Assembly (NCBI GenBank): GCA_027449865.1
Contig: DAIDKV010000190.1
Location: 1-64,000 of the forward strand
DNA: 64,000 bases
Source: Planctomycetales bacterium
Lineage (GTDB): Bacteria; Planctomycetota; Planctomycetia; Isosphaerales; Isosphaeraceae
Reading direction: 5' to 3'
Shown: positions 22,155 through 30,954 of the stretch, one piece after another
How positions within the stretch are numbered: the first letter of the stretch is position 1
How the letters are laid out: each line of letters starts with the position of its first letter
Position numbers and translations under genes: made by a program
Notes under the pieces: model-generated
The model's database searches: none
The model's input: only the letters and a program-made list of their open reading frames with translations
What the model was told of the DNA's origin: nothing

Positions 22155-23765
22155 TCATCCCTGATTGTGCCGATATTCCTGCGCGGAGACATGCTCGCTA
22201 ATTGTGAACCCCTGTGCGGAACCCTGTAAAATCGACGTGCCCGCGCGGCCCGATTCGCGGACGAATTGGAGAAGTTCTCGGGTAAGCTCGCCGGCACTAT
22301 CGATTCGGGGGACCTTGTTCTGCCCCCCCAGCCGGCCCCGATTTCGCATCCAGCTCTCGAAGGTGCCTGGACCCACAACCTGGAGAGCGGGAGCCGGCAG
22401 GCCGACTCCCGCGATTCGGTGCGCCCGGTAGTCGTCGTTGCGCGCGGCGAGATTTCCATCGAGAAGATCGCGAAAGCGTGCCGCGTGGGTGGGCTCGCGG
22501 AGAAACTCAACGATGAAGAGATGATAGCCTGGCCGCTCGTCGAACATGGGGCCGACGTGCCAGTCGCGAACCATGGCGCCGGTTTCGGAAGCCGCGCGGG
22601 CGACGGCGGCCTCGAGTTCCTCGACGATCAGGTGTTCGCCGAATGCGGAGAGGGTCTGCCTCGTCCGGCCGGTGAATACGAATAACGGGGGATCGGTCGC
22701 GTCGAATCGAACCGTATCGCCAATCAGGTGTGCCCACATACCCGCACACGTGGAAACGACGATAGCATAGTTGCGACCGGGGACGACATCGGCGAGCCAG
22801 TGCCGGGTGGGTCGGGGCGAGTCGAGTTCGTCGACGGGGATGAATTCGTAAAAGATCCCGTTGTCGTGGGCGAGGCGAAGGAGCTGGGTCTCTGGGTCGC
22901 CGAACCCGACGAAACCTTCGGAGCAGGCGTAGGTCTCGACCATTCGGACGCGGGGCGACCCGACGAGGTCATGAAACGCCTCGCGATAGGGATCGAACTT
23001 CACACCACCGTGGACAATGCACTGAAGTTTCGGCCAGACCTCGATCATCGAGGATTTCCCGGTATTCTCCAGGATTCGATGGAAGAGCATGAGGAGCCAG
23101 CTTGGGACACCGCCAACCAGCGTGATCGGTTCGCGGACGGAGAGTTCGGCGAACCGATCGAGTTTGCGGTCCCAGTCGGATTCGAGGGCCAGCTTTCGGG
23201 GCGGAAAGGTGAACGGACGGAGCCAGGGCGCGACCTCGACGGCCGCGATACCGCTGAGGTCTCCCTCGCGGACTCCCGGTGCGACCCTGGACAGCCCGGC
23301 ACTTCCTCCAAGAAAGAAAATCCGGCCTCGGAAGAGATGCGTCTCAGGGTGCGAGGCACACTGGAGCTCGACCATTCGCCGGGCGGTCTCGCGGTTGGAG
23401 CGGACCATCGCGCGCGAGACGGGAATGTATTTTGAAGCTCCCTGCGTCGTCCCGCTGGTGAGTGCCAGATAGGGGATGCGGCCGGGCCAGGTCAGGTTGT
23501 CGAAGACGGGGTAACGGTCGCGAAGGTAGTCGTTCCAGAGCGCCTCGTATGTCCGGATCGGGACGGCCGACTGAAACTCGGCGATCGACCTGATCCGGTC
23601 GAAGCCGTGATCGCGGCCGAACCGGGTTTTTCGGGCATGTCGGACGAGCCGAGCCAGCGTCTTCTCCTGCGCCAGGACCGGATCGGACGCGAGGAAGGCG
23701 GAGGAACGGCGAAGGGCCAGGGCTCGGAAGCCAAGATCGACGAGGTATCTCGGGAAGTCGGACAT
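22155..23765 (-). CDS. GH3-family acyl-adenylating/amide-forming enzyme
   Basis: GH3 proteins activate a carboxylate as acyl-AMP and transfer it to an amino acid, giving an amide (plant JAR1 type); bacterial members are largely uncharacterised. Visible features: an N-terminal helix region (LARLVRHARKTRFGRDHGF), SAVPIRTYEALWNDY, the ATP P-loop YLALTSGTTQGASKYIPV (STSGT-like), YACSEGFVGFG in the second nucleotide motif, and GDTVRFD before the C-terminal lobe (FTGRTRQTLSAFGEHL). Length 536 is normal. The start at 23765 is chosen because it overlaps the methyltransferase stop by 1 nt (TGATG), whereas the ORF track runs 11 codons further. Third gene of the coupled minus-strand operon. Confidence 0.88.
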   Translation of the reverse strand: MSDFPRYLVDLGFRALALRRSSAFLASDPVLAQEKTLARLVRHARKTRFGRDHGFDRIRSIAEFQSAVPIRTYEALWNDYLRDRYPVFDNLTWPGRIPYLALTSGTTQGASKYIPVSRAMVRSNRETARRMVELQCASHPETHLFRGRIFFLGGSAGLSRVAPGVREGDLSGIAAVEVAPWLRPFTFPPRKLALESDWDRKLDRFAELSVREPITLVGGVPSWLLMLFHRILENTGKSSMIEVWPKLQCIVHGGVKFDPYREAFHDLVGSPRVRMVETYACSEGFVGFGDPETQLLRLAHDNGIFYEFIPVDELDSPRPTRHWLADVVPGRNYAIVVSTCAGMWAHLIGDTVRFDATDPPLFVFTGRTRQTLSAFGEHLIVEELEAAVARAASETGAMVRDWHVGPMFDERPGYHLFIVEFLREPTHAARFRDLLDGNLAARNDDYRAHRIAGVGLPAPALQVVGPGTFESWMRNRGRLGGQNKVPRIDSAGELTRELLQFVRESGRAGTSILQGSAQGFTISEHVSAQEYRHNQG

Positions 23766-24358
23766 CACGATCCGTCCACCTCCCTGGGATCGCGGCAAAT
23801 GTAGGCTCCCGAGGGAGGAATGTTGCGGGGCTCGAAGGCGAACTCCACTCGCTCGAAGTAGCGTCGGTAGAGCGGCCAGTAGATCAGCGCCAGCTCCGTG
23901 ATCTGGTTGTAGCTTCCGCCCGACTGCAACACCGATCGCACGGACCGCATGAGCGCCCGCTGCTGCTCCTTGCGGAACGAGGGGAACGGTAACCCCGAGA
24001 TGACGTGGTCGACCCGATCGAGGCCCCGATCCGCGAGAATTCCAGCGAGCTCGCGGGCGTCGCCCTCAAGGATTTCAAGGTTCGGCCGTTCGCGGAAGCG
24101 GTCGCGCAGCAACCGCAAAAAATCAGGGTCGCGCTCGACGACCAGGACACGGCAATCGGGATGGGCTCGCTCGAGGATGGCCCGCGTGATCGGTCCTGTG
24201 CCTGCGCCCAGCTCGACCACGGATCGGGTCGTCGACCAGTCGATGTTGCGGATTGTCGTGCGCGCCAGCCACCGGCTCGACGGCGCGAGGCTCGCGATCG
24301 GGTTGCCCCGGGTGATCTGCGAGAGGAACTTGCCGAGGAAGAGAACGTTGTCGTTCAT
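23765..24358 (-). CDS. Phospholipid-type N-methyltransferase (PmtA/OlsG-like)
   Basis: SAM-dependent methyltransferase of 197 residues with a Rossmann core: VVELGAGTGPITRAIL (motif I), VLVVERDPDFL (acidic residue binding ribose), EGDAREL, and DHVISGLPFPSF in the catalytic region. This arrangement, with the N-terminal FLGKFLSQ and the GLPFPS segment, is typical of PmtA-like enzymes that methylate the head-group amine of phosphatidylethanolamine or of ornithine lipids. A methyltransferase of this kind (OlsG) is known from the planctomycete Singulisphaera. Orthology to OlsG is my inference. Start overlaps the hydrolase stop by 4 bp and its stop overlaps the GH3 start by 1 nt. Confidence 0.82.
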   Translation of the reverse strand: MNDNVLFLGKFLSQITRGNPIASLAPSSRWLARTTIRNIDWSTTRSVVELGAGTGPITRAILERAHPDCRVLVVERDPDFLRLLRDRFRERPNLEILEGDARELAGILADRGLDRVDHVISGLPFPSFRKEQQRALMRSVRSVLQSGGSYNQITELALIYWPLYRRYFERVEFAFEPRNIPPSGAYICRDPREVDGS

Positions 24359-25257
24359 GCGCGGCCGATGAAGATCCTTGGGCTAACGGCGAGAAGTCCA
24401 CCGCGTCCGGCCGGGGCCTCGACCTGGTCGAGATACCGACGCGGATCGAGGCCGGCGGGGAGGACCCGAAGCCGGTCGCGGAGATACAGCGAAATCAGAC
24501 GATTGACCAGCCGGGCTTTTTCGATCTGAGGCGCATGGCCGCACCTCGGAATCACCACCTGGCGAACCCCCGGAATGCGCTCGGCCGCCCGGATCGCGCC
24601 GGGGAGATCGGAAAGGATTCGATCCTCGGCACCCCAGATGATCAGGGTGGGCTTCGAGACTCGTGGCAGGAGTGGGGCGACGGAATGGCCGACTGTCCCT
24701 CGGAGCGTCCGGATCACGCCGAGCTTCCACCGACGCTCCTGGAACCGCGCCCGGAACGCTTCCACGAGATCGTCGGTGGCGTGGTGTCCGTGAAAGAAGA
24801 CGGATCGGATCATCGCATCGGCGTTGCTTCGTCGCACGCCTTCCAGAACCGGTAGATTCTCTCGACCGTGGAATCCTGAGGGAGCCAGCAGGACGGTCCG
24901 CGACACTTTTTCGGGATGGCGGTCGGCATAGGTGAGCACCACCTGGCCGCCGAGGCTCGATCCGACGAGGTGGTACGGTGGGCGCTGGACGAATTCGTCG
25001 AGGTAGACCGCCAGCCGATCGGCGAGATAGTCGACGGTGACCTCGCCGCCCGATCGGAGATGGCGGTGGAGGGCCTCGCCGTCGTAGACCAGGATCTCGG
25101 GGATCTTCAGATCGAAGTGACGACTCAGGGGAACGCGGCTGGCGTACCAGCTTTCCGGCTGCTCGGCCAGGCCGTTGACCAGGACCAGCGGCATTCGCCG
25201 CTCTCCGGTGTCGAGGAGTGGGGGCAGGTCGAACCAGCTTCGGACGTCGGGGGGCAT
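24355..25257 (-). CDS. Alpha/beta-hydrolase-fold enzyme
   Basis: A 300-residue alpha/beta hydrolase: MPLVLVNGLAEQPESW (oxyanion-hole side, HG replaced by NG), the nucleophile elbow GSSLGGQVV (Ser), TLIIWGAEDRIL (acid region) and RCGHAPQIEK (catalytic His). The triad looks complete, so the protein should be an active esterase, lipase or acyltransferase. Start at ATG 25257 is inferred from the domain boundary (MPPDVRSWF) and a promoter about 70 bp upstream; the ORF track runs 36 codons further. First gene of the operon with the methyltransferase and GH3 genes, overlapping the former by 4 bp (ATGA). Confidence 0.85.
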   Translation of the reverse strand: MPPDVRSWFDLPPLLDTGERRMPLVLVNGLAEQPESWYASRVPLSRHFDLKIPEILVYDGEALHRHLRSGGEVTVDYLADRLAVYLDEFVQRPPYHLVGSSLGGQVVLTYADRHPEKVSRTVLLAPSGFHGRENLPVLEGVRRSNADAMIRSVFFHGHHATDDLVEAFRARFQERRWKLGVIRTLRGTVGHSVAPLLPRVSKPTLIIWGAEDRILSDLPGAIRAAERIPGVRQVVIPRCGHAPQIEKARLVNRLISLYLRDRLRVLPAGLDPRRYLDQVEAPAGRGGLLAVSPRIFIGRA

Positions 25258-25335: not shown

Positions 25336-25549
25336 TGCCCCGCCGCCGCCACCCAGCCGGGACACGGGATTTCATCCTGTCTTCCGCGATCCTTCGGACA
25401 CTCGACACGAAGGAGCCGCCCACTTGCCCCGATGGCCCGTCGACATCGGGACGATCGGGATGATAGCCTGTCATTTCCGGCCTTGCCCGGAACGAACTCG
25501 ACGGGTCACGTAGCCCGTGGATGTCGATCCCGCCGGACCGAGAGGATCG

Positions 25550-27214
25550 ATGATGGGTCGGATGGGTTGGATGGCGGCCGTGTTCGCCCTCGGCACTGGG
25601 CTCTCGCTGGCCGAGGCGTCGGAGACGGGAAGACGGCCGGATATCGTGGTGATTCTGCTGGACGACCTTGGATTCAGCGACCTCGGCTGTTACGGCGGCG
25701 AGATCCGTACGCCGAACATCGATCGACTCGCCGCGGAAGGCATCCGGTTCACCCGGTTCTATAATGCGGCTCGATGCTGCCCGACCCGGGCCTCGCTGCT
25801 GACCGGTCTGTATCCGCACCAGGTCGGCCTGGCGCTGAACGGGCGGACGCTCACCCACGACGGCGCCACGATCGCCGAATTGCTCCGCGTCCACGGCTAT
25901 CAGACGGCGATGGCCGGCAAGTGGCACCTCTCGGAGACGGCTCCGCTTCAGGGGAATCCGGCCGGCCCCGCGCATCTCGGCTGGCTCAATCATCGGACCG
26001 ATCGCGACCGGCCGTTCGCCGGGCTCGACACCTATCCCGTCGCCCGGGGATTCGACCGCCATTTCGGTCCAATCTGGGGCGTGGTCGACTACTTCGATCC
26101 CTTTTCCCTCGTTGAGGGAACCCAACCCGTCCGCGAAGTCCCCGAGGATTTTTACCTCACCGACGCCATCACGGCGAAGTCGGTTGAGTCCATCCGATCG
26201 ATGGCGACGACCGACCGCCCGTTCTTCCTCTACGTCGCCCATTGTGCCCCGCACTGGCCGTTGCACGCCCGACCCGAGGACATCGCCCGATATCGGAACA
26301 CGTATCGCGACGGCTGGAACGCGATGCGACGCGATCGGTATCGTCGGCAAATCGAACGGGGCCTGATCGATCCCAGGCGCTATCCCCTGCCCTCGGTGAT
26401 GGGCCGCGGACCCGACTGGGACGAACTCGAACCCGAGGAGCGTGAGCACCAATCGGCCCTGATGGCCGTCCACGCGGCGATGGTCGATCGAGTCGACCAG
26501 GGGGTTGGGGCGATCATCGAGTCGCTCCGCGCAACCGGACGGCTGGAGAACACCGCGATCTTCCTCCTGTCCGACAACGGCGCCTCGCCGGAGCGTTATC
26601 TGGACCCCGGCTTCGACCGCGCCTCGACGACCCGGGAGGGCCGTCCGATTCAGTACCGGGGAAGGTTCGACCCGGGCCCGGAGACGACCTGGGGCTACAT
26701 TGGCTCGCGATGGGCCAACGCGGCGAACACTCCATTCCGGTACTGGAAGGCCGAGTCGTTCGAGGGGGGTTGCCATACCCCGATGATCGTCCGATGGCCG
26801 GCGGGACCGATCCCTCGTCCCGGATCGACGACCGACCAGATCGGCCACGTGATCGACCTCATGCCGACCTGCCTGGAACTGGCCGGAGCCGCCTATCCAC
26901 AGACGTTCGAGGGGCACCGCATCCGGCCAGTTGAAGGACGGAGCCTCGTCGCGACTCTTCGGGGTCAGGAAAACGCCCCGCCTCGACCGCTGTTCTTCGA
27001 GCACGAGGGCGGACGAGCGGTGATCGCGGACGGATGGAAGCTGGTGGCTCGTCGCGGCGGGCCCTGGGAACTCCATCACCTCGACCAGGACGCCACCGAG
27101 ACGCGGAACCTGGCGAAGGCCGAGCCGGATCGCGTCCGCGAAATGGAAGACCGCTGGCAGAGCTGGGCCCGTCGGGTCGGAGCGGGTGGGCCCGCCGACA
27201 GGCAGGACCGTTGA
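25550..27214 (+). CDS. Secreted arylsulfatase (formylglycine sulfatase)
   Basis: Type I sulfatase that hydrolyses sulfate esters, probably exported: the N-terminus MMGRMGWMAAVFALGTGLSLAEAS is a signal peptide. Metal and active-site motifs: VVILLDDLGFSDLGCYGG (Asp-Asp ligands) and the maturation site CCPTRASLLTG, matching CxPxRxxxxTG, where the first Cys becomes formylglycine with help of a separate maturase. AGKWHL supplies the active-site Lys, HCAPHWPL and LSDNG the remaining metal residues. Length 554 is normal. Planctomycetes use many such enzymes on sulfated polysaccharides. Start ATG at 25550 is the first of a MM pair; the ORF track begins 11 codons earlier. Confidence 0.93.
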   Translation: MMGRMGWMAAVFALGTGLSLAEASETGRRPDIVVILLDDLGFSDLGCYGGEIRTPNIDRLAAEGIRFTRFYNAARCCPTRASLLTGLYPHQVGLALNGRTLTHDGATIAELLRVHGYQTAMAGKWHLSETAPLQGNPAGPAHLGWLNHRTDRDRPFAGLDTYPVARGFDRHFGPIWGVVDYFDPFSLVEGTQPVREVPEDFYLTDAITAKSVESIRSMATTDRPFFLYVAHCAPHWPLHARPEDIARYRNTYRDGWNAMRRDRYRRQIERGLIDPRRYPLPSVMGRGPDWDELEPEEREHQSALMAVHAAMVDRVDQGVGAIIESLRATGRLENTAIFLLSDNGASPERYLDPGFDRASTTREGRPIQYRGRFDPGPETTWGYIGSRWANAANTPFRYWKAESFEGGCHTPMIVRWPAGPIPRPGSTTDQIGHVIDLMPTCLELAGAAYPQTFEGHRIRPVEGRSLVATLRGQENAPPRPLFFEHEGGRAVIADGWKLVARRGGPWELHHLDQDATETRNLAKAEPDRVREMEDRWQSWARRVGAGGPADRQDR

Positions 27215-27274
27215 ATCGCCCCGATGGCATCCAATCGGCGTACTCTACCCGAATCCAACGAGCGAAGACCTCTC

Positions 27275-28723
27275 ATGCGAATCTTGCGTCGAGTCCTTCA
27301 TAGGCTCTCCCGGATCGGTCGAGGCCGTCGGCAGCGGGTCTTCGCTTTCGTCGAGCGGCGGGAACACCTGGAGAGGCGGTTCAAGCTTGGCATCATCCTC
27401 GCGACAGCGATTCTGATGTTTAGCGTCCTCCGATTCTTCCCCTGGGGCCGATACCTGGCGGCCAGCCTCGAGACGAGAACATCCAGCCTGGCAAAGCGAG
27501 CCTTCGGTCTGGAGAACAGCCGAGCCGAGATCAAGCAACAGTGGGCGAACTATCGTCGGCTGGGGATCGAACGCACGATGCCGCCGATCCGGAAGTTCTA
27601 CGAGGAATGCGACCCGAACTTCCAGCGCGTTCTTCGATACGCCGGCATGGATCCCGACCATGCGCTGGTTCGATGGGGGAATTACAACTGGACGTTCCTG
27701 CTTTCGTCCAAGGTGTATGAGGCTGATGACGAGGGGCGGTCGTATCGGCTCCGGCCAAATTACAAATCGATCTGGCTCACCAAATTGAACACGCTGGCCG
27801 GCGCGCTGGCCTTCTACCTGGTGCCCGACACCCCCGAACTCGCGGAGGCGATCAAGGGGACGACCGCGATCGCCGTGGAGACCTCGCGGCAGACGACCAA
27901 CTCCTGGGGTCTTCGCGGACCCGAACCCGAGGTCAACGCCCCGCTTCGGATCATGGTCCTCGGGGATTCCTATATGCAAGGCATGTTCATCGGCGATGAT
28001 GAGACGCCCCCCGAATGCCTGCGCCGATATCTGGAACGGATGACGCACCAGCGCGTCTCCGTGCTGAACACCGGAGTGATGGGCTACTCGCCCGAACAGT
28101 ACCATGCGGCACTGGTCAAATTCGCCGACCGATTCCAGCCGCACGCCGTGATTGTGAGCTGCTTCGCCAACGATTGCGGCTCGGAGTTCGACGCGGTGAG
28201 CTTTGGAGCCGGAGACTGGTATGAAGGCGCCTACTGGCTCGAAGAGATCCGGGAATTCTGCTCGAAGCGAGAATACACTTACCTCTACGTCACCGAGCCG
28301 TTCGAATATCCCTTCTTCAAGAATCGGAAGTCAGGGAACTACCCCGGTAAGCTGATCAACTTGCTCGAATGCAAGAGCTCTCATGTTCTCGACCCAATGG
28401 ACTCCTTCCTCGACCAGGACCTTCGAGCCCGGAATGCCGACCGCCGCGAGGGTCGAGAGCCTTCGGAGCTGGGCGTCCTCTTCAACTGGAAGCTCAAGGA
28501 CGGACATTTCTCAGCGGTCGGCGCCGAACTCTGGGCCGAGGTCACCGGACAACGGCTCTTGCTGCTGATGGAGGAAGACCAGCTCACCCGCTCCCCTCGA
28601 AAGCCGGCCCGATCACCCGCGACGCCGCTGGCGTCCCTTCGGGGTGACGGACCGGTGCAAGGCGGACCATCCCGAGCACTCGAAACGATCAGGACACCCG
28701 ACGCCGGCATCCCGCGTAGGTAA
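27275..28723 (+). CDS. Membrane-anchored SGNH/GDSL-hydrolase-like protein
   Basis: After a strongly basic N-terminus, one transmembrane helix (LGIILATAILMFSVLRFF) anchors a large extracytoplasmic domain. SGNH blocks are visible: VLGDSYMQGM (block I, Ser nucleophile), NTGVMGYSPEQY (block II Gly), CFANDCGSEFD (block III Asn) and LKDGHFSAVGAELWAE (block V Asp/His). The catalytic residues look intact, suggesting an O-acetyl-sugar esterase or acyltransferase-like role at the cell surface. I use ATG 27275 (GAAG 7 nt upstream); an alternative in-frame ATG lies at 27224. Follows the sulfatase by 60 bp and may share its transcript. Its 3' end overlaps the convergent PEP-CTERM gene by 35 bp. Confidence 0.8.
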   Translation: MRILRRVLHRLSRIGRGRRQRVFAFVERREHLERRFKLGIILATAILMFSVLRFFPWGRYLAASLETRTSSLAKRAFGLENSRAEIKQQWANYRRLGIERTMPPIRKFYEECDPNFQRVLRYAGMDPDHALVRWGNYNWTFLLSSKVYEADDEGRSYRLRPNYKSIWLTKLNTLAGALAFYLVPDTPELAEAIKGTTAIAVETSRQTTNSWGLRGPEPEVNAPLRIMVLGDSYMQGMFIGDDETPPECLRRYLERMTHQRVSVLNTGVMGYSPEQYHAALVKFADRFQPHAVIVSCFANDCGSEFDAVSFGAGDWYEGAYWLEEIREFCSKREYTYLYVTEPFEYPFFKNRKSGNYPGKLINLLECKSSHVLDPMDSFLDQDLRARNADRREGREPSELGVLFNWKLKDGHFSAVGAELWAEVTGQRLLLLMEEDQLTRSPRKPARSPATPLASLRGDGPVQGGPSRALETIRTPDAGIPRR

Positions 28724-29579
28724 GCCCGGCACTCATGCCGATCAGACCCAGAATCCAGGACCCGGGCTCGGGAACGCTCAGTCCCGCCACGGTATCGATC
28801 GTATAACCAGACTGAAGGCCGGTCACAGTGACGCCCGTGTCGGTTGCCGTTCCGGATGTGGTGTCCACAGTGTAAATACGGATCCCGCTCGATGACCCGG
28901 CGTGCGCCAATGTATCGACGCCGTAAATCGTGCCACCGGCGTTCACAAGAGCCAGACTATCGTTGTATTTGGTGCCTAGCCCGCCTGTCCCGACCACGGT
29001 TCCCAGGCCCGTGGACGGATCGATCTGGTACAAGTCGAGCCTCCCCGCACTGTAGCTGTATAAATTTTCATATAACTTACCATTTGATCCGAGAACGAGA
29101 CCTCCGCTGGCGTAGTTAAGGCTCGCGGTGGTCCCTACGGGGTTACTGGCCGGCGTGATCATGGTTACGCCGTTGTTAATGGTTTCGAGCAGGATATTTC
29201 CATTTGCTACACCATGATGGGGATTGATACCGTAGAATCCGACTCCCGGGTCGTAGGTGAGGCCCCAGAGAGCACCGGGCACATTGAGAGCATTCAGGTG
29301 GGTCTGGCCGGACGTCGAGATGGTGTAAAGATTCCCGCTATTCTCATCCGAGGCATACAGCGAGTTGCCTGGACCAACAGAAAGCGATTGCGCATGAATA
29401 TTTTGAGCGGAAAAATCCGCGATCTCGTGGAATGCACCAGTGGTCAGGTCGAGCGTTCCGAAGATTGAGGTGCTCGAGGAACTGGCCGTCGCGTAGACCA
29501 CCAGATCGGCACGGGCCGAGGCGAACGTGGCGCCGAGCATCGCCGCCGCGAAGAAGAGGGTCGTCCGAATTTTTGTCAT
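28689..29579 (-). CDS. Exported PEP-CTERM-sorted beta-propeller-like protein
   Basis: A 296-residue protein with signal peptide (TTLFFAAAMLGATFASARAD), a repetitive beta-rich body, and a classical PEP-CTERM tail: VPEPGSWILGLIGMSAGL then CRRRVS. Exosortase systems recognise such tails. The body has repeated short strands with Gly/Asp turns (GNSLYASDENSGNLYTI, GSNGKLYENLY, GGTIYGVD), like NHL/YncE-type propellers. The start at 29579 follows GGAGCTGATC; the ORF track adds 69 unlikely residues. Overlaps the SGNH gene by 35 bp at the 3' end, which includes the basic tail codons. Confidence 0.85.
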   Translation of the reverse strand: MTKIRTTLFFAAAMLGATFASARADLVVYATASSSSTSIFGTLDLTTGAFHEIADFSAQNIHAQSLSVGPGNSLYASDENSGNLYTISTSGQTHLNALNVPGALWGLTYDPGVGFYGINPHHGVANGNILLETINNGVTMITPASNPVGTTASLNYASGGLVLGSNGKLYENLYSYSAGRLDLYQIDPSTGLGTVVGTGGLGTKYNDSLALVNAGGTIYGVDTLAHAGSSSGIRIYTVDTTSGTATDTGVTVTGLQSGYTIDTVAGLSVPEPGSWILGLIGMSAGLTYAGCRRRVS

Positions 29580-29964
29580 GATCAGCTCCGAATACACCGA
29601 TCGCGCACGTCGTGGTGAGGCCGGTGTTGCCAGGGAACAACACGGTGAAGAAAAACCACCACTTGCCTCGCGATGATCCGTGAGGGGACGTCGCTCATGG
29701 GGGCTTGCTTCACCCGTCGAGAAGGACGAAAAACTTCTGTCAATCCCGCCAGAACAACAGGGTCGTCCTGGATCAACAGATTGCACAACCCTATGGCCCT
29801 GGGACGGGGTGATTCAAGTCTGTCCTAAAAAAACAACACATCCGCCGTTGAGGGCATTTATCGGGTGAGGGTTGGCAGGAGCCGGACTTGACGATGGAGT
29901 GGGTCTCGCCCCATGCTTTCGGGTCGGGAACGAGTCGGACGCGGATGGGGCCGGGGACAAAGGG
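29580..29964. other. Divergent intergenic region
   Basis: Spacer between the PEP-CTERM gene and the epimerase gene. On the minus strand a perfect TTGACA (about 29736-29741) occurs but no good -10 sits 16-18 bp away. An A7 run lies near 29826. No ORF with real content and no RNA gene seen. Confidence 0.35.
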
Positions 29965-30954
29965 ATGCGGATTTTCATCACGGGTGGATCGGGGCTGATC
30001 GGGCGCAACCTGGCCCAGTCGCTGATTGAGTCGGGGCATCGGGCGGTGATCCTCTCGCGTCGGGCCGAGGCGATCCGTCGGGATCCGGCGATGTGGGCGT
30101 ATCAGGTCGTTGAGGGCGATCCGACCGCGTCGGGGCGCTGGCAGGAGGAGGTGGAGGGCTGCGACGCCGTTGTGAACCTCGCCGGGCAGAGTGTCTTCGC
30201 CGAGCGATGGAACCGCGAGGTTCGGGCGAAGATCCGGGAGAGCCGTGTCCGGTCAGCCGAGCAGGTGGCTTCGGCGATCCGGCAAGCGACGACGAAGCCA
30301 AAGGTAGTGGTGCAGGGCTCGGCGATCGGTTACTACGGCCCGCATGGGGACGAGGAACTGGACGAAGCCGCTCCGCCCGGCTCGGACTTTCTCGCGGGCG
30401 TTTGCAGGGACTCGGAGCAGGCTGTCGCCGCCGTGGAGGGGATGGGGGTTCGGCTCGCGATTCTTCGGATCGGGATCGTGCTGGCTCGCGAGGACGGAGC
30501 GCTCAAGGTCATGGCGCCGATCTTCAAGATCGGTCCGGGCGCCCCGATTGGCAGCGGCGGACGGCTCGGCGCGGCGAAGGGCCAGCAGTGGATGAGCTGG
30601 ATTCACATCGACGACATCGTCGGGATTCTCCGGTTGGCGCTGGAGAATCCCGAGGCGTCGGGGCCGATCAACGGAACCTCGCCCAACCCGGTCCGAAACG
30701 TCGAGTTCGCCCGGACGCTGACCGAGGCTTTGCGGAAACCGTTCACGCCCTGGCGATTCTTCGTCCCGGTCGGGCCGCCGGATGCCCTGCTCCACCTGAT
30801 GTTCGGCGGCGTGGCCGAGGTCATCACGACGGGCCAGAAGGTGGTCCCCTCGAAGGCGATGGCGCTCGGTTATCGGTTCCGATATCCGGAGTTGTTGCCA
30901 GCCCTTCGCGCCCTCTTCGGCGAGTGGAGAGTCTCCATCACACGTCGATCGTGA
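29965..30954 (+). CDS. TIGR01777-type NAD(P)-binding epimerase
   Basis: Extended short-chain dehydrogenase of the YfcH/TIGR01777 type (329 residues). Start ATG gives MRIFITGGSGLIGRNLAQ at the very N-terminus, the Rossmann GGSGxIGR motif, and follows GGGGACAAAGGG. Further family features: ILSRR after strand 2, VVNLAGQSVFAERW, SAIGYYG (the catalytic Ser-Tyr region; Tyr-Tyr in place of YxxxK) and the C-terminal DUF1731-like end (FFVPVGPPDALLHLMFG, VPSKAMALGYRFRYPEL). Cytoplasmic; the physiological substrate of this family is unknown. Monocistronic by appearance, ending at a bidirectional hairpin. Confidence 0.9.
   Translation: MRIFITGGSGLIGRNLAQSLIESGHRAVILSRRAEAIRRDPAMWAYQVVEGDPTASGRWQEEVEGCDAVVNLAGQSVFAERWNREVRAKIRESRVRSAEQVASAIRQATTKPKVVVQGSAIGYYGPHGDEELDEAAPPGSDFLAGVCRDSEQAVAAVEGMGVRLAILRIGIVLAREDGALKVMAPIFKIGPGAPIGSGGRLGAAKGQQWMSWIHIDDIVGILRLALENPEASGPINGTSPNPVRNVEFARTLTEALRKPFTPWRFFVPVGPPDALLHLMFGGVAEVITTGQKVVPSKAMALGYRFRYPELLPALRALFGEWRVSITRRS

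Follow-up and report, generated by a model that had tools for sequence, protein, structure and literature searches.

The window, the whole stretch of 64,000 nucleotides that was analysed, holds three genes read on the minus strand in the order hydrolase, methyltransferase and GH3 protein, whose products carry Pfam matches to an alpha/beta hydrolase, a class I SAM methyltransferase, and the N, M and C domains of GH3. The genes and their junctions are as follows, with predicted functions taken from NCBIfam models:

24355..25257, minus strand: olsI, alpha/beta-hydrolase fold, predicted ornithine-lipid O-acyltransferase, 300 aa (NF052614, 419.7 bits)
24355..24358, minus strand: ATGA overlap of 4 bp at the olsI/olsG junction (gap -4), read from the sequence
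23765..24358, minus strand: olsG, putative ornithine-lipid N-methyltransferase, 197 aa (NF041658, 306.5 bits; best match and position)
23765..23765, minus strand: TGATG junction with a 1-nt overlap between olsG and olsH (gap -1), read from the sequence
22155..23765, minus strand: olsH, predicted GH3-like N-acyl-ornithine / lyso-ornithine lipid synthetase, 536 aa (NF052613, 847.5 bits)

The overlaps of 4 bp and 1 nt reported in a first-pass annotation of this DNA are exact, and the overlapping start and stop codons suggest translational coupling of olsI, olsG and olsH in the window; the orthologous genes of Singulisphaera acidiphila, however, lie 67 and 1 bp apart, so the pathway does not depend on tight coupling. 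Taken together, the features described below make it very probable, from comparison with characterised orthologues, that these genes form an olsI-olsG-olsH operon producing N-methylated ornithine lipids.

Family assignment of the three proteins

Equivalog models exist for OlsI, OlsG and OlsH in NCBIfam release 20.0. The window OlsI and OlsH proteins score above the respective cut-offs (385 and 620 bits), whereas the methyltransferase, at 306.5 bits, falls below the cut-off of 350 and is therefore OlsG-like by the strict criterion, its name and probable activity following from its best match and its place in the operon. No other family comes close to the OlsG score, the next being PmtA (67.9 bits, against a cut-off of 250) and, among the rRNA methylases, KsgA (40.9 bits); the PmtA/OlsG-like grouping put forward in the first-pass annotation, which had named rRNA methylases as a competing assignment, is thereby narrowed to OlsG. 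Of the 39 Isosphaeraceae copies, each flanked by olsI and olsH, 18 score below 350 bits, the window copy among them; since the 17 others sit at this same position in the operon, the simplest interpretation is that the threshold is set too high for some members of Isosphaeraceae.

PmtA, a class I methyltransferase with lipid amines as substrates, is related to the window protein, which could conceivably be a PmtA-type phospholipid N-methyltransferase for phosphatidylcholine, with the GH3 protein and the hydrolase as functionally unrelated neighbours. Such a role would accommodate the remote similarity to PmtA, the production of phosphatidylcholine by S. acidiphila (PMC12493201), and the failure to find a second close homologue of the methyltransferase in the window's genome, but the disparity between the OlsG and PmtA scores and the invariant linkage with OlsH and OlsI render it exceedingly improbable.

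For OlsG, the gene context is accordingly that of the family, between olsI and olsH, with a better match than to PmtA or the rRNA methylases. The window OlsI shares an operon with OlsH and retains an intact Ser-Asp-His triad (Ser101, Asp212 and His241, in GSSLGG, WGxxD and CGHAP motifs), which is invariant in 17 aligned copies; the SAM motif of OlsG reads VELGAGTG, with ELGAGTG likewise invariant in 17 aligned copies. All three nucleotide-binding motifs are present in the window OlsH (TSGTTQGASK, TYACSE and GMWAHLIGD) and align to those of S. acidiphila, with the motif 1 serine (within TSGTT in the window) kept in 21 of 21 aligned OlsH sequences; the equivalent residue of the S. acidiphila enzyme, S115, is essential, its alanine variant being dead (PMC12493201).

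The fold family and adenylation motifs of OlsH are those of the plant GH3 acyl-acid amido synthetases (JAR1, GH3.8, GH3.12), whose solved structures were matched in phmmer searches, although the plant enzymes are remote in sequence and act on hormones and benzoates rather than on fatty acids and ornithine. In a FastTree phylogeny built from 64 OlsH and GH3 sequences, the window OlsH fell within an Isosphaeraceae OlsH clade that includes the S. acidiphila enzyme; the Gemmatales-type copies formed the next group, and the remaining planctomycete GH3 proteins lay further out.

The orthologous operon of Singulisphaera acidiphila and the proposed pathway

Sinac_1601-1600-1599 of S. acidiphila has been reported to encode OlsI, OlsG and OlsH (Rivera-Najera et al., J Biol Chem, August 2025; PMC12493201). 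The operon of S. acidiphila DSM 18658 (NC_019892.1; locus L112 of the named-genome scan described below) has the same gene order, strand and catalytic motifs as the window, with identities of 63% for OlsI, 60% for OlsG and 64% for OlsH. Its OlsH, as read from the DNA, comprises 526 aa with motif positions 114, 289 and 353, the figures given in PMC12493201, and the protein compared here is thus the assayed OlsH.

On the basis of this orthology, the window proteins would share the substrates of their S. acidiphila counterparts. OlsH would join an ATP-activated fatty acid to the alpha-amine of ornithine, yielding lyso-ornithine lipid; for the orthologue, the synthesis of N-acyl ornithine has been reconstituted in vitro with ornithine and a fatty acid in the presence of ATP and Mg, and deletion of olsH abolishes trimethylornithine lipid (PMC12493201). 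ATP and Mg dependence is thus established for the orthologue, and an acyl adenylate is the intermediate to be expected of the GH3 family. OlsI would then place a second (piggyback) acyl chain onto the 3-hydroxyl of the first to give ornithine lipid, as demonstrated for the orthologue, which in extracts turns the lyso form into ornithine lipid (PMC12493201). The S. acidiphila OlsH takes hydroxypalmitic acid poorly as a substrate in vitro (PMC12493201), a point that bears on the origin of this 3-hydroxyl in the whole family. OlsG would complete the head group by adding up to three methyl groups from SAM to the delta-nitrogen; the S. acidiphila enzyme (Sinac_1600) methylates the ornithine delta-nitrogen three times (Escobedo-Hinojosa 2015, as cited in PMC5352709 and PMC7828035), and the same activity is predicted for the window protein.

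Much of this scheme had been anticipated in the first-pass annotation, where GH3 was proposed to form the amide bond of an aminolipid, a part taken elsewhere by OlsB or OlsF, and the methyltransferase to finish the head group; both proposals agree with the published orthologous operon (PMC12493201), and the E. coli expression and lipid-loss experiments that it had suggested have been carried out on the S. acidiphila orthologue (PMC12493201). Its view of the hydrolase as an enzyme trimming or supplying acyl chains does not hold for the orthologue, OlsI being an O-acyltransferase that adds the second acyl chain. A true lipase or esterase releasing acyl chains for OlsH would suit the complete Ser-Asp-His triad and the requirement of OlsH for some source of free fatty acids; it is nonetheless decidedly unlikely, given the conversion observed in extracts with the orthologue and a window protein score above the OlsI equivalog cut-off.

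The head group itself could differ, with the same three-step chemistry applied to lysine or arginine. Minor activity with both amino acids has been recorded for the S. acidiphila OlsH, for which ornithine is preferred, and the specificity of GH3 proteins is believed to differ among bacteria (PMC12493201); motif 2 of the window OlsH, moreover, is one residue apart from that of S. acidiphila (TYACSE vs TYPCSE), a change shared with the nearest relatives of the window. An identity of 64% over 500 aa to the ornithine-preferring enzyme, a score well above the equivalog cut-off, and nesting within the clade that contains this enzyme nevertheless make a different head group very unlikely, and ornithine the expected substrate.

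Ornithine lipids, the same product class, are also made by OlsBA (Sinorhizobium) and OlsF (Serratia), through amide and then ester acylation of ornithine, by enzymes that are unrelated to the window proteins. Neither the OlsB-type PF13444 nor the OlsF-type PF19576 domain was matched in the window's genome (99.4% complete), both searches being positive in control genomes.

Distribution across Planctomycetota and the divergent neighbour

Within a sample of 45 Isosphaeraceae genomes, OlsG was identified in 39, and in every one of these 39 the full olsI-olsG-olsH array lies on one strand; recurrence on this scale, in 39 of 45 genomes, shows that the three-gene arrangement is not due to chance. The six remaining genomes comprise G251, with an orphan OlsH only, and five with no olsI, olsG or olsH, two of which are assemblies of only 77% and 64% completeness; in the other three (G249, G250 and G256, 93-99% complete) none of the three genes was matched.

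Phylum-wide samples gave nothing above the cut-offs outside the window's genome. Confinement of the operon to Isosphaeraceae was considered and rejected as a sampling effect, being refuted by a named-genome scan and by a class sample in which OlsH was matched at E <= 1e-130 in 91 of 298 genomes, with 88 of the 298 passing the cut-off, these belonging to Isosphaeraceae and three other families. The named-genome scan, with OlsI alignment, returned 78 loci, at least 22 of which lie outside the Isosphaeraceae group, retain the olsI-olsG-olsH order and show 43-52% identity to the window proteins; they are mostly from Gemmataceae and Gemmata-, Fimbriiglobus- or Limnoglobus-type genomes. Counts per locus type in this set are approximate, one locus (L164) having been sorted as olsI alone despite the presence of olsG, and of olsH about 1.2 kb on. 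Conservation of the three genes together, on which the first-pass annotation had made its hypothesis depend, thus extends from 39 of the 45 Isosphaeraceae genomes to at least 22 Gemmatales-type loci.

Variant arrangements were also found. Five Gemmatales-type loci (L133, L134, L141, L165 and L166) carry an olsI-olsH pair without adjoining olsG, which would predict an ornithine lipid lacking methyl groups unless some other methyltransferase is active. Conversely, olsI-olsG loci without olsH occur in Zavarzinella formosa and in Fimbriiglobus-type MAGs, and a full OlsH above the cut-off lies elsewhere in four of four genomes checked, so another N-acylating enzyme, considered for these loci, is not called for. 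Such relocated olsH genes are a small exception to the reported pattern in planctomycete homologues, where OlsH and OlsI share one operon (PMC12493201).

Orphan OlsH genes with intact motifs and without adjoining olsI or olsG were observed at four loci: L101 (G254), L102 (G255), L103 (G288) and L104 (G251). The first three are second copies in genomes that bear an operon of their own and the fourth is the sole copy in its genome; the substrates of orphan OlsH proteins may differ from those of the operon enzymes. Adjacent, convergent homologues of OlsI (41%) and OlsH (39%) were seen in a Candidatus Omnitrophota MAG (L173), a record labelled as another phylum, where the OlsH takes a basal position in the planctomycete OlsH clade and contamination is possible. 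OlsI homologues of 44-46% identity are present in Planctomycetaceae and Pirellula MAGs (L143, L167 and L168), genomes in which no OlsH was found, one giving just a 76-bit partial match.

No fourth operon member common to the relatives was found on the coding strand, and the only conserved neighbour is a divergent TIGR01777-family oxidoreductase (SDR; 290 bits, cut-off 207). In 21 of the 23 named Isosphaeraceae loci whose upstream sequence is long enough, this gene is divergent from olsI at a distance of 228-624 bp; it adjoins olsI in S. acidiphila (at about 3745-4695 of L112), whereas in the window it is displaced to about 4.6 kb (29872-30954, plus strand), a block of sulfatase, GDSL-like and PEP-CTERM protein genes (window 25517-29786) intervening between olsI and the SDR both here and in the near relative L131. 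There is a slight chance that the SDR works together with the Ols enzymes, for instance by providing the hydroxylated acyl chain or altering it.

Ornithine lipids in planctomycetes

The pathway is already known from papers of 2015 and 2025, and the window represents a new copy of a known operon; the first-pass annotation was correct on both the pathway and the orthologue, but the idea had been published. The locus accordingly contributes one sequence and one point of distribution, and no new mechanism. The olsI-olsG-olsH operon constitutes a third route to ornithine lipids, which contain no phosphorus and are ecologically important membrane lipids of planctomycetes in peat and soil. It is general among Isosphaeraceae and, to judge from the loci read here, reaches Gemmatales-type planctomycetes, a distribution that fits the reports of trimethylornithine lipids from both groups (PMC7828035).
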